NCBI GenBank assembly: GCA_031262335.1
Contig: JAISHX010000040.1
Coordinates: 1 to 5,921 of the forward strand
Source: Clostridiales bacterium
Lineage (GTDB): Bacteria; Bacillota; Clostridia; Lachnospirales; WRAX01
Direction: 5' to 3'
Length of the DNA: 5,921 bases
In this document: piece by piece, positions 1 to 5,607 of the stretch
Numbering within the stretch: position 1 is the first letter of the stretch
Layout: each line of letters starts with the position of its first letter
Made by a program: the position numbers and the translations under genes
The notes under the pieces: generated by a model
Databases searched by the model: none
What the model was told of the DNA's origin: nothing
The model's input: the letters and a program-made list of their open reading frames with translations, nothing else

Positions 1-37
1 AATAAATAAGATAAACTAAACAGTATGAGGGTGACTT

Positions 38-1072
38 ATGAAAACGTATAACATAGGGATACTGGGGTTTGGGACAGTTGGCTCCGGCGTATTTGACATT
101 TTCAGCAAAAACGCAGATATAATTAAAGAGAAAAACTGTCTTGCGGTTAATGTAAAACGGATTCTTGACCTTAGAAAATTTCCCGGGAGTCCCGCCGAAA
201 ATCTTATTACAACAAATTTTGACGATATTGTCAGCGACAATGAAATCTCCCTTGTAGTTGAAGTTCTGGGCGGAGAGCAGCCTGCTTTCGATTTTTGCAA
301 ACAAGCTCTTGCCGCAAAAAAAAGTGTCGTAACAAGTAACAAAGAGCTTGTTGAAAAACACGGTGCGGAGCTTATGAAAATCGCGTTTGAAAACGGCGTG
401 CATTTTCTGTTTGAGGCAAGTGTCGCAGGAGGCATACCCGTAATTCGATGCCTTAACGAATCTTTTAATTCCGATTCTGTCATTGAAATTTCGGGTATTC
501 TGAACGGTACAACAAACTACATTCTTACAAAAATGACAAAAGACGGGCAAAGCTTTGAGGACGCACTGGCGGACGCACAATCATTGGGATATGCGGAGCA
601 AAATCCGTCTGCCGATATTGAAGGCACAGACGCATGTCGGAAACTTGCAATACTTCTTTCGATTGCAACAGGTAAAGATGTTGACTGTCGTGACATAAAC
701 ACAAAAGGAATAGATGCGGTTACGACTTCGCAAATTGCAAAAGCCAATGAGAAAGACGGCGTAATTAAATTAGTTGCAAAAGCGAAAATAGAGAAAGATA
801 ATGTTTTTGCGCAAGTTGCTCCAATGTTTATCGGCAAAGAAAGCAGTTTGTTTAAAGTTGACGGAGCACTTAACGCTGTCAGCATACGCGGTTCCGCAAC
901 AGGAGAAATTACGCTCATTGGAATGGGTGCGGGCAAACTCCCGACTGCAAGCGCAATTGCGTCGGATATTATTGCCGCTCTTACAAGACGTCCATCCGCA
1001 CCGTTTTGGTGCGAACAGCGTCAGTCTGTTGCATCGTTTCCTGCACAGTATGCTGAAAGGTTCTCAATATGA
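38..1072 (+). CDS. hom: Homoserine dehydrogenase, short form without ACT domain
   Basis: Cytosolic enzyme that reduces L-aspartate 4-semialdehyde to L-homoserine with NAD(P)H, the branch point towards threonine and methionine. The 344-residue protein opens with a dinucleotide-binding Rossmann motif, GFGTVGSG at 10-17. The catalytic domain carries SNKELV (100-105), the ILNGTTNYI segment (154-162) and the family signature around 187-203, with E187, D198 and K202 at the positions of the yeast enzyme's Glu208, Asp219 and Lys223. The conserved GMGAGKLPTASA segment (295-306) follows. Most Bacillota homologues run to about 400-435 residues with a C-terminal ACT domain; this one stops just where that domain would begin, leaving no room before thrB. 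The ATG at 38 has a GAGGGTGA ribosome binding site (27-34) and starts right at the Rossmann fold. All three forward frames carry stops within bases 1-19, so no upstream gene overlaps it. Function is near certain; loss of allosteric control is inference. Confidence 0.95.
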   Translation: MKTYNIGILGFGTVGSGVFDIFSKNADIIKEKNCLAVNVKRILDLRKFPGSPAENLITTNFDDIVSDNEISLVVEVLGGEQPAFDFCKQALAAKKSVVTSNKELVEKHGAELMKIAFENGVHFLFEASVAGGIPVIRCLNESFNSDSVIEISGILNGTTNYILTKMTKDGQSFEDALADAQSLGYAEQNPSADIEGTDACRKLAILLSIATGKDVDCRDINTKGIDAVTTSQIAKANEKDGVIKLVAKAKIEKDNVFAQVAPMFIGKESSLFKVDGALNAVSIRGSATGEITLIGMGAGKLPTASAIASDIIAALTRRPSAPFWCEQRQSVASFPAQYAERFSI

Positions 1073-1980
1073 GAGAATTTTGTGTAAAAGTCCCCGCGAC
1101 AACCGCGAATCTTGGTCCCGGATTCGACTGCATAGGAATGGCTCTTCAGTTATATAATTCCGTAAAAGTCGAATTAACAGAAGATAAAAAAATTCCTCTG
1201 GAAATAATTTCAAGAAACAATTTCCACATTCCGGCGGATGAAACAAACTTAATTTATGCTTCTATAAAAAGATTCTACGATGAGGCGGGAATCGGAAATT
1301 TACCCCCGATTAGACTTACACAAGACGATAAAATTCCAATGACGCGCGGACTTGGCAGCAGTGCAGCCTGCATTGTGGCAGGACTTATTGCCGCCAATGA
1401 AATTTCCGGCTTGAAACTGAAAAAAGAAGACCTTGCCGCGCTTGCGGCAAAAATTGAAGGGCATCCCGATAACTGTGTTCCCGCGATTATGGGCGGAGTT
1501 GTCGTCGGAGCGGTTACAAACGGACAGCTTTCTTTTATTAAGCTGTATACAGGACTTTTTGAGCAAAACAATGTTTCGTTTGCGGTTTGCGTGCCGGGGT
1601 TTGAGCTTTCAACAGAGCTGGCACGCAAAGTCCTGCCCGAAAAATATTCCCGTGCGGATGCGGTTTTTAATGTTTCGCACGCCTCGCTTTTGACCGCCGC
1701 GCTTGCAAACGGCGACTTATCAAAGCTGTCTGCGGCAATGGCGGACAAAATCCACCAGCCTTACCGCTCGGCACTTGTTCCGAATATGACGGAGATTTTT
1801 GAAAAAGCCAACAAACTCGGTGCGATTGGGTCTTTTTTAAGCGGTGCCGGACCTACAATTATTTCATTGTTTACCGAACATGATTTTGAGAAAAAAATGC
1901 AAAGCTATTTGGACACGCTGCCCGGAGGCTGGCAAATTTTTAATCTTAAACTTGATTACAACGGAGCTGTAATTGAATAA
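1069..1980 (+). CDS. thrB: Homoserine kinase (GHMP kinase family)
   Basis: Cytosolic kinase that transfers phosphate from ATP to L-homoserine, giving O-phosphohomoserine, the substrate of threonine synthase. The 303 residues match the usual family length. All three GHMP motifs are visible: PATTANLGPGFD near the N terminus (9-20), the glycine/serine-rich ATP loop PMTRGLGSSAA (90-100), and the C-terminal SGAGPTIIS (258-266). EGHPDN (130-135) supplies the glutamate that helps bind magnesium in this family. The ATG overlaps the hom stop codon as ATGA (4 bases), and GAAAGG at 1055-1060 inside hom is a well-spaced ribosome binding site, so the two genes are very probably co-transcribed and translationally coupled. 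No threonine synthase gene follows; a probable terminator lies just downstream. Nothing looks broken or unusual. Confidence 0.96.
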   Translation: MREFCVKVPATTANLGPGFDCIGMALQLYNSVKVELTEDKKIPLEIISRNNFHIPADETNLIYASIKRFYDEAGIGNLPPIRLTQDDKIPMTRGLGSSAACIVAGLIAANEISGLKLKKEDLAALAAKIEGHPDNCVPAIMGGVVVGAVTNGQLSFIKLYTGLFEQNNVSFAVCVPGFELSTELARKVLPEKYSRADAVFNVSHASLLTAALANGDLSKLSAAMADKIHQPYRSALVPNMTEIFEKANKLGAIGSFLSGAGPTIISLFTEHDFEKKMQSYLDTLPGGWQIFNLKLDYNGAVIE

Positions 1981-2084: not shown

Positions 2085-2104
2085 GAGGAGAGAGATATAG
2101 ATTG
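2085..2104 (+). promoter_or_regulatory. Ribosome binding site and TTG start of lysC
   Basis: GAGGAG (2085-2090) lies 11 bases before the TTG at 2102. No in-frame ATG or GTG exists between the ribosome binding site and the conserved KFGGSS motif, which begins at codon 6. Aspartokinases normally have this motif within the first 5-10 residues, so the TTG is the best start despite the rather long spacing. Confidence 0.75.
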
Positions 2105-3349
2105 CTGATTGTTCAGAAGTTTGGCGGGAGTTCTGTTGCAAACGCCGAACGGATAAAACGTTGCGCCGGAAGAATAAAAGAATGTTACGACAAAGGAAAT
2201 GCGATGGTTATCGTATTGAGCGCACAGGGAGATACTACAGATGACTTAATTGAAAAAGCGCGTGAAATTTCACAAACGCCGTCGCGGCGTGAAATGGATA
2301 TGCTGCTTTCAACAGGGGAGCAAATTTCCGTTGCGCTTATGTCTATTGCGCTTCAGGAATTAGGCGTGCCGGCAGTTTCATTAAACGCCGTTCAAGCCGG
2401 AATAGTTACGACTGCGGCACACTCAAACGCCCGCTTTAAAAAAATTAAAACCGAAAGAATTATTGCCGAACTCGACAAGAAAAATATTGTTGTTATTACC
2501 GGATTTCAGGGAATAACCGAATCGGGAGATATTACAACACTCGGTCGCGGAGGTTCCGATACGACAGCCGTCGCACTTGCCGCCTCACTTAACGCCGATA
2601 TTTGCGAAATTTATACGGACGTTGAGGGCGTTTTTACCGCCGACCCTCGTGCTGTTCGTACCGCGCGTAAGCTTGATGAAATAAGCTACGACGAAATGTT
2701 GGAACTTGCCTGCCTCGGAGCAAAAGTGCTTGAAAAACGCTCTGTTGAGCTTGCGAAAAAATATAATATCAGTCTTGTCGTGCGTTCAAGCATGTCGAAC
2801 GCGTCAGGAACAACTGTCAAGGCACAAAGTGCGTTGAAACCTATGCTTGTAAGCGGTGTCGCCGTTGACAAAGACGTTGCGCGTGTTTCGATTACCAGTA
2901 TCAGCAACGTACCGGGCGCAGCATCAACCATCTTTTCATTACTGGCGAAAAACCGTATTTCCGTTGACATAATACTTCAGTCAATCGGGCGTGCATCCAC
3001 TTTAAAAGACATTTCTTTCACCGTCGCAAAATCCGACCTGAACGAAACAATGCAAATCCTTAAAGACAATCAGGCTTATATATCATATAAAGACATTTCA
3101 AGTGACGATTCAATAGCAAAACTTTCTGTCGTCGGCGCGGGAATGGAATCAAATTCCGGAATTGCGGCAGACTTTTTCACCGCGCTGTCTGCTGCCGGCG
3201 TAAATATCGAAATGATTGCAACTTCCGAAATAAAAATTTCCGTACTTGTAAATAGTAATGATGCTGACAAAGGTGCAATAGCCGCCCATAATAAGTTTAT
3301 CAACAGTACGACACTCGGCACAACAATTACACAAAAGGAGGAGCGCTGA
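2102..3349 (+). CDS. lysC: Aspartokinase, monofunctional, with tandem C-terminal ACT domains
   Basis: Phosphorylates L-aspartate with ATP to give 4-phospho-L-aspartate, the committed step to lysine, threonine, methionine and (via dihydrodipicolinate) related products. The 415 residues are close to Bacillus LysC length. The amino acid kinase domain (about 1-235) shows KFGGSS (6-11), STGEQIS with E73 (70-76), the TTLGRGGSDTTA loop (145-156) and DPR (181-183). Two ACT domains follow (about 260-330 and 340-400), including DIILQSIGR (289-297) and the STSEI-like ATSEIKIS (373-380). Residues that shift lysine/threonine inhibition when mutated in the Corynebacterium enzyme (A279, T311, S381) correspond by hand alignment to A274, S305 and S375, and the N-x-P-G ligand loop is intact (269-272). 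Feedback inhibition is therefore likely; lysine, threonine or both cannot be decided. Codon 1 is TTG. One base separates it from the next gene, which duplicates its ACT region. Confidence 0.96.
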   Translation: MLIVQKFGGSSVANAERIKRCAGRIKECYDKGNAMVIVLSAQGDTTDDLIEKAREISQTPSRREMDMLLSTGEQISVALMSIALQELGVPAVSLNAVQAGIVTTAAHSNARFKKIKTERIIAELDKKNIVVITGFQGITESGDITTLGRGGSDTTAVALAASLNADICEIYTDVEGVFTADPRAVRTARKLDEISYDEMLELACLGAKVLEKRSVELAKKYNISLVVRSSMSNASGTTVKAQSALKPMLVSGVAVDKDVARVSITSISNVPGAASTIFSLLAKNRISVDIILQSIGRASTLKDISFTVAKSDLNETMQILKDNQAYISYKDISSDDSIAKLSVVGAGMESNSGIAADFFTALSAAGVNIEMIATSEIKISVLVNSNDADKGAIAAHNKFINSTTLGTTITQKEER

Positions 3350-3827
3350 TTTGAAAGACGAATTATTGGAAACTATGCTCATTAGTGATGTTGGCGTAGA
3401 GAAAAACATCGGTCGTATAGCTATTATCGGCGTCAGGCATTTGCTCGGTTCAGCTTCTGAAATTTTTACGGCTTTGGCAAAAAATAATATTTCTGTCGAT
3501 ATAATATTGCAGTCAATCGGACGTACGCAAAAAAAAGACATTTCTTTTACCGTTGCGAAGTCCGATTTGGAAAAGGCAAAACAGACTATTGAAGAAAACA
3601 GAAATTCCATAATATTTGATAAAATTTCTGTTGACGATTCTGTTGCAAAAATTTCTGTTCTCGGCGCGGGAATGGCGTCGAACCCGGGCATTGCGGCAAT
3701 GTTTTTTGAATCTCTTTTTAAAGCCGGTATAAATATTGATATGATTTCAACGTCCGAAATTAAAATAGCCGTACTTGTTCCGGAACAATATGCCGATGCA
3801 GGCGCGGAGGCAGTTCGCAACAGGTTT
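2843..3827 (+). repeat. Tandem paralogous duplication: lysC ACT region and downstream ACT gene
   Basis: The lysC segment 2843-3298 and the segment 3375-3827 of the next gene are direct, diverged copies, offset by 532 bases, then 529 after a one-codon indel. A hand alignment gives about 88 identical residues of 153 (roughly 57%). The longest stretches are ISVDIILQSIGR, KDISFTVAKSDL and TSEIKI. DNA identity is mostly broken at third positions, with only short perfect runs such as TCGGCGCGGGAATGG, so the duplication is old and both copies appear to have been kept under protein-level selection. Confidence 0.9.
3335..3353 (+). promoter_or_regulatory. Strong ribosome binding site and TTG start of the ACT gene
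   Basis: AAGGAGG at 3335-3341, a near-perfect Shine-Dalgarno sequence, lies inside the end of lysC and 9 bases before the TTG at 3351. This is stronger than the lysC site and shows that the downstream reading frame is meant to be translated in its own right, probably by coupling to lysC termination at 3347-3349. Confidence 0.85.
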
Positions 3828-3851
3828 ATTGCCGAAAATATGCTTGTTTGA
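3351..3851 (+). CDS. Standalone tandem-ACT protein, aspartokinase regulatory-subunit-like
   Basis: A 166-residue protein made of two ACT domains (about 22-90 and 100-160) with no kinase domain, signal peptide or membrane segment. It aligns end to end with the ACT part of the adjacent LysC, with DIILQSIGR at 50-58, KDISFTVAKSD at 62-72 and STSEIKIA at 133-140. ACT domains bind amino acids and dimerise with one another. In Bacillus aspartokinase II and Corynebacterium aspartokinase, a free ACT-pair beta subunit, made from an internal lysC start, assembles with the full alpha subunit. I infer that this gene encodes such a beta subunit as a separate product. It begins with TTG after a strong ribosome binding site, one base after lysC. 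The first ACT loop differs from LysC (HLLG at 30-33 instead of NVPG), while Q54, S65 and S135 at known effector-site positions are kept. It could instead be a residue of a lost second aspartokinase, but the intact frame and signals argue against decay. Confidence 0.88.
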   Translation: MKDELLETMLISDVGVEKNIGRIAIIGVRHLLGSASEIFTALAKNNISVDIILQSIGRTQKKDISFTVAKSDLEKAKQTIEENRNSIIFDKISVDDSVAKISVLGAGMASNPGIAAMFFESLFKAGINIDMISTSEIKIAVLVPEQYADAGAEAVRNRFIAENMLV

Positions 3852-3876: not shown

Positions 3877-5607
3877 ATGACATTTATGGAAAATTATCAG
3901 AAGTGGCTTTCCGACCCTTATTTCGATGAAAAAACGAAGGAAGAACTGAAATCACTTGCGGGCAACGAAAAAGAAATCGAGGATAGATTCTACAAAAACC
4001 TTGAGTTTGGCACAGGCGGATTGAGAGGCGTTCTTGGTGCGGGCAGTAACCGTATGAATATTTATACAGTACGGCAGGCAACACAGGGGCTTGCAAATTA
4101 CATTATAAAGCATGGCGGCAATGAAGGCATTGGTATTGCCGTCGCCCATGACTCCCGCCGAATGAGCCGCGAATTTGCGTTGGAAACGGCTCTTGTTTGC
4201 TGTGCAAACGGGATTCCGGCGTATATTTTTCCGTCTTTGCGTCCAACACCGATGCTTTCGTTTGCTGTCCGAAACTTAGGCTGTATTGCCGGAGTTGTTA
4301 TTACCGCAAGCCATAACCCTGCCGAATATAACGGATATAAGGCATACTGGGCAGACGGCGGGCAGATTCCTTTTCCGAGAGATGAAGAAATAATAAAAGA
4401 AGTCGCGCTTATAACATCGTTTTCACAAGTGAAAACAATGAGTGAAGATGAGGCAAAAGAAAAAGGTTTACTGAAAATTATAAGCCATGAAGTGGACGAC
4501 GCTTTTGTCGAAAATGTAAAGGCTCAAATTGTTAATCCCGAAATTATTACAAGAAATGAAGACCTCAAAATTGTATACACGCCGTTGCACGGAGCAGGCA
4601 ACCGCCCTGTAAGACGCGTTTTATCGGAACTCGGATTCAAAAAAGTGTACGTTGTGCCGGAACAGGAATTTCCCGACCCTAATTTTACAACCGTTTCCTA
4701 TCCTAATCCGGAAGATTTTAAGGTTTTTGAACTGGCAATTAAACTTGCCGCCGAAATTGATGCCGACATTATTGCCGCAACAGACCCCGACTGTGACCGT
4801 GTCGGCATTGTTGTACGCGATTCTCAAGGAAATTATTCAGTGCTGACAGGAAACATGACAGGCGCACTCCTTTGCAATTATGTTTTGTCACAGCGGCATG
4901 AAAAAGGCATTATGCCTGAAAAAGCCGCCGTTGTTTCCACAATTGTTTCCACCGATATTACAAAAGAAATAACAAAAAAATTCGGTGTCAAATATTATGA
5001 GGTTTTAACCGGATTTAAATATATAGGCGAGAAAATTAAAGAGTTTGAAAACACCGGTGAAAACTTTGTTTTCGGCTTTGAAGAAAGCTACGGCTGTCTT
5101 GCAGGCACTTACGCCCGCGACAAAGACGCCGTTGTTGCAACCGCTCTTATTTGTGAAATGACTGCTTATTATAAAGAAAAAGGCATGACTCTTTATGATG
5201 CCCTTCAGGAAATGTATAAAGAATACGGTTATTACAAAGAATCTATCCAGAGCATAACTCTCAAAGGCAAAGACGGTGCGGAACAAATCAAAAAAATTAT
5301 GTCAAATCTGCGTCTTAATCCTCCGAAATGTATCGGGGGGGCAGTCGTTTCGGAAATACGCGACTATACAACAGATACTGTTAAAAACATTATTTCAGGC
5401 AAAACAAGCGACACGGGTCTGCCCGCTTCAAACGTATTATACTATGAGCTTTCGGACGGAAGTTGGTTCTGTGTACGCCCGTCCGGTACAGAGCCTAAAA
5501 TCAAAGTATATTTCGGCACAAAAGGCGACTCTGCCGCTAATGCCGACGAAAAACTCAAATCCGTCATAGCAGGAGTTATGGAGGAGTTTAACAACGCCAA
5601 TTCATAA
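3877..5607 (+). CDS. pgcA: Alpha-phosphoglucomutase / phosphomannomutase
   Basis: Interconverts glucose 6-phosphate and glucose 1-phosphate (and, in many relatives, the mannose phosphates), supplying nucleotide sugars for cell-wall, glycolipid or glycogen synthesis in the cytosol. The 576 residues match Bacillus PgcA-type enzymes. GTGGLRG (45-51) opens domain 1. TASHNP (143-148) holds the phosphoserine S145. DPDCDR (303-308) gives metal ligands D303, D305 and D307. GFEESYG (400-406) is the sugar-binding loop, and RPSGTEPK (534-541) binds the substrate phosphate. All four domains are complete. GGAGG (3862-3866) lies 10 bases before the ATG at 3877; a second ATG at 3886 is too close to a start codon that already has good spacing. 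It follows the ACT gene by 25 bases with no terminator, so co-transcription is likely although the pathway is unrelated. Glucose or mannose preference cannot be read from the motifs with confidence. Confidence 0.93.
   Translation: MTFMENYQKWLSDPYFDEKTKEELKSLAGNEKEIEDRFYKNLEFGTGGLRGVLGAGSNRMNIYTVRQATQGLANYIIKHGGNEGIGIAVAHDSRRMSREFALETALVCCANGIPAYIFPSLRPTPMLSFAVRNLGCIAGVVITASHNPAEYNGYKAYWADGGQIPFPRDEEIIKEVALITSFSQVKTMSEDEAKEKGLLKIISHEVDDAFVENVKAQIVNPEIITRNEDLKIVYTPLHGAGNRPVRRVLSELGFKKVYVVPEQEFPDPNFTTVSYPNPEDFKVFELAIKLAAEIDADIIAATDPDCDRVGIVVRDSQGNYSVLTGNMTGALLCNYVLSQRHEKGIMPEKAAVVSTIVSTDITKEITKKFGVKYYEVLTGFKYIGEKIKEFENTGENFVFGFEESYGCLAGTYARDKDAVVATALICEMTAYYKEKGMTLYDALQEMYKEYGYYKESIQSITLKGKDGAEQIKKIMSNLRLNPPKCIGGAVVSEIRDYTTDTVKNIISGKTSDTGLPASNVLYYELSDGSWFCVRPSGTEPKIKVYFGTKGDSAANADEKLKSVIAGVMEEFNNANS

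Follow-up and report, generated by a model that had tools for sequence, protein, structure and literature searches.

A separate ACT-pair gene directly behind lysC in a Clostridiales bacterium, proposed as an un-nested beta subunit of aspartokinase

A contig of a Clostridiales bacterium (JAISHX010000040.1; 5,921 nucleotides, analysed at full length and here called the window) carries a free-standing gene for a pair of ACT domains (positions 3351..3851, + strand) directly behind lysC, which encodes the alpha subunit of aspartokinase (2102..3349, + strand). With a probability of about 0.77, this gene is the former nested beta gene of an alpha2beta2 aspartokinase, duplicated in tandem, following which the internal ribosome site of lysC decayed. 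In class II aspartokinases, alpha and beta are described as products of in-frame overlapping genes (PMC8690038), and Bacillus subtilis lysCB is entered under BSU28475 with the name 'Beta subunit of aspartokinase II' (PMC5743806). Since the window has both a separate gene and an lysC that has lost its internal Shine-Dalgarno sequence, the beta subunit is likely produced, and free to change, independently.

The evidence for this reading begins inside lysC. The site was compared in 67 other complete LysC genes of relatives and in 19 from a wider sample of the class, and a Shine-Dalgarno sequence with a start codon stands directly before the first ACT domain (ACT1) in 84 of these 86 genes. It takes the form of an AAGGAGG-type sequence followed by ATG, GTG or TTG in 65 of the 67 relatives (-8.9 to -15.4 kcal/mol) and is present in all 19 genes of the class sample (-10.7 to -12.6 kcal/mol); the two relatives lacking it, L033 (34% identical) and L088 (27%), are distant aspartokinases. 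Codon choice at the site is invariant, with Lys encoded by AAG in 52/52 cases (768/1869 elsewhere in the same genes) and Glu by GAG in 61/61 (577/1680 elsewhere), and a comparable site precedes no more than 9 of the 1561 remaining internal start-type codons of the relatives' genes. The conserved site is of the kind that produces the beta subunit of alpha2beta2 aspartokinases. Six of nine additional aspartokinases have it as well (L126, L127 and L131-L134). The window lysC instead reads GTCAAGGCACAAAG-TGCG-TTG: the Shine-Dalgarno sequence (2816..2829, + strand), which has the form GTNAAGGAGGNNNN in relatives, has decayed to -2.8 kcal/mol, and a TTG is retained at the alignment position of the relatives' internal start (2834..2836, + strand). 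Residues 201-300 of the window LysC include five start codons, the best of which reaches -5.8 kcal/mol.

The ACT-pair gene itself is an intact open reading frame that begins with TTG, as lysC does, and encodes 166 amino acids. Its own Shine-Dalgarno sequence, AAAAGGAGGAG (3333..3343, + strand), lies within the last codons of lysC and forms a duplex of -11.8 kcal/mol with the anti-Shine-Dalgarno sequence; the lysC stop codon TGA (3347-3349) is separated from the TTG by the single base 3350. The automatic gene call begins the protein at ATG 3375 (P0001, 158 amino acids), where a good Shine-Dalgarno sequence is absent. Pfam detects ACT domains only (ACT_9, ACT_7 and ACT) and no kinase domain, and over 161 aligned positions the protein shares 56.5% identity with the adjacent LysC's ACT region. 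These results bear out the preliminary description of the window, which had reported a complete 166-codon gene with a strong ribosome site one base after lysC, coding for two ACT domains alone and about 57% identical to the LysC ACT region. The match to its own LysC in a search of the genome (E 5.3e-48), together with an AlphaFold2 model of mean predicted local distance difference test score 89, argues that the frame is not a product of chance. The predicted fold matches the aspartokinase beta-type structures 3s1t, 2dtj and 3aaw chain D. The product thus resembles known beta subunits in being an aspartokinase-type ACT pair without a kinase domain, as judged from Pfam, NCBIfam, PDB and fold matches. 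It does not, however, start in frame inside lysC, where the internal site is degenerate, and is for this reason proposed as a derived, un-nested form of beta. The closest named locus is the LysC of Clostridiales bacterium UBA4039, 56% identical to the ACT-pair protein; a single scan for orthologues in named genomes gave two loci, both complete aspartokinases (L032 of UBA4039 and L033 of Evansella).

Phylogenetic analysis places the ACT pair as sister to that of the adjacent LysC in three trees, comprising 79 rows (support 93/94), 76 rows once five long ones had been removed and close copies thinned out (93/90), and 30 selected rows (91/92). This placement indicates that the gene arose within the lineage of the window. 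In the 76-row tree the next neighbour is the LysC of G007, a genome of the same family (83/40), which has the same hom-thrB-lysC order, a nested TTG start with a Shine-Dalgarno sequence of -11.1 kcal/mol, and no ACT gene after lysC. Taken together, the tree and this distribution suggest that the nested start is the ancestral condition, from which the separate gene was derived. The proposal of the preliminary description that beta was split off by duplication and then diverged is therefore well supported, both by the trees and by the loss of an internal Shine-Dalgarno sequence that nearly all relatives keep. It had also counted loss of the gene in close relatives against the proposal; no second ACT copy occurs in the 15 other genomes of the family, but this goes against the proposal in letter only, because in the tree these genomes branch off before the duplication, and they retain the nested start.

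The two copies differ at 50, 35 and 88 first, second and third codon positions over 159 codons, with a non-synonymous divergence (dN) of 0.33 and a synonymous divergence (dS) of 1.70 (NG86 method). At a dN/dS of approximately 0.2, the ACT-pair gene is, on these estimates, under purifying selection. This bears on the explanation that the gene is a recent duplicate heading for decay and open merely by chance, which would fit its presence in a single genome, its longer branch (0.93 against 0.54 for the LysC copy in the 76-row tree) and its change of 5 of the 29 columns that are at least 95% conserved in 74 relatives, including the ACT1 proline (LysC keeps 27 of these columns and the ACT-pair protein 24). 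Decay is nevertheless very unlikely: differences fall mostly at third codon positions, the frame stayed open in only 1 of 2000 runs of a crude neutral simulation, the gene has a strong Shine-Dalgarno sequence and a confidently predicted fold, and the loss of the nested start in lysC would be left unexplained.

Divergence of the new copy is also seen in 48 of 64 relatives, to which the ACT-pair protein is less similar than is LysC's own ACT region. The change with the greatest likely effect lies in the ACT1 loop, where the ACT-pair protein has H30-L31-L32-G33 (3438..3449, + strand) in place of the D-x-P-G of relatives; among the 74 relatives the aspartate is present in 68 and the proline in all 74, D30 and P32 are both at least 90% conserved, and the window LysC itself has N-V-P-G. 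The D-x-P-G loop of ACT domains presumably contacts the amino acid. With this loop altered, the ACT pairs of LysC and of the new protein are likely no longer equivalent. At positions numbered as in Corynebacterium glutamicum, the ACT-pair protein has H at D274 and L at P276, and it retains Q298, I375, S381, E382, D294, N374 and T380, the first four of which are listed in PMC10464499 as deregulating when mutated. Of these retained residues, D294, Q298, N374, T380, S381 and E382 surround the effector site.

Further tandems were sought in four overlapping sets, each including the genome of the window, of 96 (E<=1e-5), 392 (E<=1e-20), 391 (E<=1e-25) and 398 genomes (E<=1e-25). No other lysC-ACT tandem occurs in the 96 or the 391 genomes, nor among the matches listed for the 392 and 398, where weaker copies, and free pairs in genomes giving a single match, could have gone unnoticed; only the window combines a tandem with a lost nested site. 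Second matches are of several kinds. In the 96-genome set, eight genomes have an ACT pair elsewhere and G052 has a second frame of 412 amino acids, while second full-length aspartokinases occur in G188 (392 set) and in G417 and G610 (391 set). Of the two aspartokinases of G610, the first (L131) keeps the nested start and the second (L135) lacks it; a beta subunit might be shared between them. Short ACT frames lie at contig ends in G312, G015, G168, G837, G567 and G913, and the lysC of G039 (L011) is broken.

Two other genomes of the phylum encode free ACT pairs of the LysC type. In G795 (L123 2738-3292 / L130), the pair immediately follows thrB and is not preceded by a kinase part, and the genome additionally encodes a divergent aspartokinase; at the corresponding place, the related genomes G872 and G836 carry a complete lysC that includes a nested start. 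In G878 (398 set; L136 1504-1980), the second match is a pair directly behind hom, where AAGGAGG precedes a TTG start that looks like the ancestral nested start, and the complete lysC of this genome retains its nested site. Like the window gene, both are kinase-less ACT pairs in a run of threonine-pathway genes; unlike it, they have no adjacent lysC and are of separate origin. In trees, each groups with a LysC from the same genome or family; a single clade of the window, G795 and G878 pairs is rejected (p-AU 1.17e-44). Considered with the tree placements, this rejection suggests at least three separate origins of free-standing beta genes in the phylum. A further family of ACT pairs (155-161 amino acids; L078-L085) is found in 8 of the 96 genomes near upp and a deaminase gene, and in several near wecB; these are 26-33% identical to the new gene, have a different neighbourhood and are not counted as its orthologues.

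The existence of ACT pairs away from lysC, at the upp, deaminase and wecB loci of eight genomes and behind thrB and hom in G795 and G878, lends some weight to the possibility that the window protein acts as a homodimer or together with another partner, for example as an amino-acid sensor or with the short homoserine dehydrogenase, rather than as a subunit of aspartokinase. The homoserine dehydrogenase of the window has 344 amino acids, compared with 406 for the UBA4039 protein and as many as 450 for that of G007. Such a role is nonetheless distinctly unlikely, given that the gene lies one base after lysC and is sister to that very LysC, that the nested start has been lost in the same lysC, and that the predicted fold matches aspartokinase beta subunits.

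A single LysC-ACT chain could also be envisaged, formed by a +1 frameshift at CGC-TGA, aided by the Shine-Dalgarno sequence, or hidden by a one-base assembly error; a change of one base between 3335 and 3347 would join the frames. Its model would be the cyanobacterial enzyme (Synechocystis aspartokinase; PDB 3l76; NF005656), which is the top sequence match and shares with the window the order of kinase, ACT pair and second ACT pair. In the window, by contrast, this order is split into two genes by the TGA at 3347-3349 and a start at 3351 in another frame; LysC scores 523.1 against NF005656, below the cut-off of 657, and the two ACT pairs are not encoded in one polypeptide. The junction has no homopolymer, the Shine-Dalgarno sequence lies 9 bases before the TTG as expected for initiation, and the 120 LysC relatives listed reach at most 423 amino acids. 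In the one tree holding both cyanobacterial pairs, these group together and the second ACT pair of the window does not cluster with them. A fused product is thus highly improbable.

Several observations weigh against the duplication and un-nesting of beta. The internal site is absent at that place in three of the nine additional aspartokinases (L128 and L129, which are divergent, and L135), so the window is not the sole case of its loss. Sister support for the two ACT pairs (91-93 in ultrafast bootstrap) is good yet below the mark of 95. The duplication junction was searched for in protein and DNA and not found: the C-terminal tail of the window LysC, at 16 residues the longest of 66 compared and with KEER at its end, is similar to the linker that precedes ACT1 (GTT..KEE), but was rejected as a relic of it, as shuffles scored equally in 380/2000 (protein) and 760/3000 (DNA) trials, and so did 94 of the 323 other stretches of lysC. 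Lastly, the tandem arrangement is known from a single contig of a single incomplete draft genome (58.5% complete; 224 contigs totalling 1.10 Mb), the missing part of which could hold further aspartokinases. The window is one entire contig (C170), and the protein search turned up no second assembly of the locus; P0001 and P0121 are from a single contig.

All genes of the window lie on one strand. The conserved hom-thrB-lysC run starts with the short hom (homoserine dehydrogenase; 38..1072, + strand), followed by thrB (homoserine kinase; 1069..1980, + strand; TIGR00191), which overlaps hom by ATGA. LysC comprises an amino-acid kinase domain and two ACT domains in 415 amino acids and scores 440.8 bits against TIGR00656 (cut-off 402.25). 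Downstream of the ACT-pair gene are a phosphoglucomutase-like gene (3877-5607, + strand) and a further open frame from 5622 on (+ strand), of which only the start lies within the window. The hom product has a shorter C-terminus than its longer relatives; loss of an ACT domain was rejected as a description of it, Pfam showing none in the longer G007 and UBA4039 proteins either. Contig C150 is probably the upstream neighbour, its 3' end (L102 9076-9194) being identical over 119 bases to window positions 1-119. No Rfam match at gathering thresholds indicates a riboswitch or other leader control in the window, and patterns derived from the ACT-pair gene found no viral contig encoding a relative.

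Compared with nested class II beta subunits (B. subtilis lysCB and C. glutamicum lysC-beta), the window protein shares the ACT pair and the fold, and is proposed to share the role; it differs in having its own gene behind lysC, 43% different from the alpha ACT region, and in an lysC whose internal start lacks a Shine-Dalgarno sequence. A search of open-licence PMC papers found no description of an aspartokinase ACT-pair subunit encoded by a gene of its own. CRISPR Cas11 offers a parallel from an unrelated protein, as this small subunit is nested in cas8/cas10 or encoded by a separate gene, depending on subtype (PMC11899642); the separate and nested forms show no significant sequence similarity. 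In the window, unlike Cas11, donor and copy adjoin.

The events would have begun with tandem duplication of the ACT-pair part of lysC, followed by decay of the internal ribosome site. With stop and start one base apart and a strong Shine-Dalgarno sequence, translation would be coupled and alpha and beta made together. On the model of C. glutamicum, beta would associate with LysC through its ACT domains, and lysine and/or threonine would bind at the alpha-beta interface, switching the kinase off. Alpha and beta, no longer one stretch of DNA, are able to diverge, and the changed D-x-P-G loop of beta has probably weakened or retuned one of the two effector sites. A heteromer with two unlike effector sites that would read two signals, as put forward in the preliminary description, is proposed from the fold, knowledge of the family and the one altered loop. 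More tentatively, and at somewhat less than even odds, the window may represent a natural un-nesting in which the sensors have specialised for two signals or two affinities, as one of at least three origins of free beta genes in the phylum.

An alpha/beta pair unlocked in this way would provide a direct test case for the constraint that nesting imposes, and whether the lysine/threonine feedback of aspartokinase can be set per subunit would become testable. It also advises caution in annotation, as short ACT proteins in threonine/lysine operons may be aspartokinase subunits.
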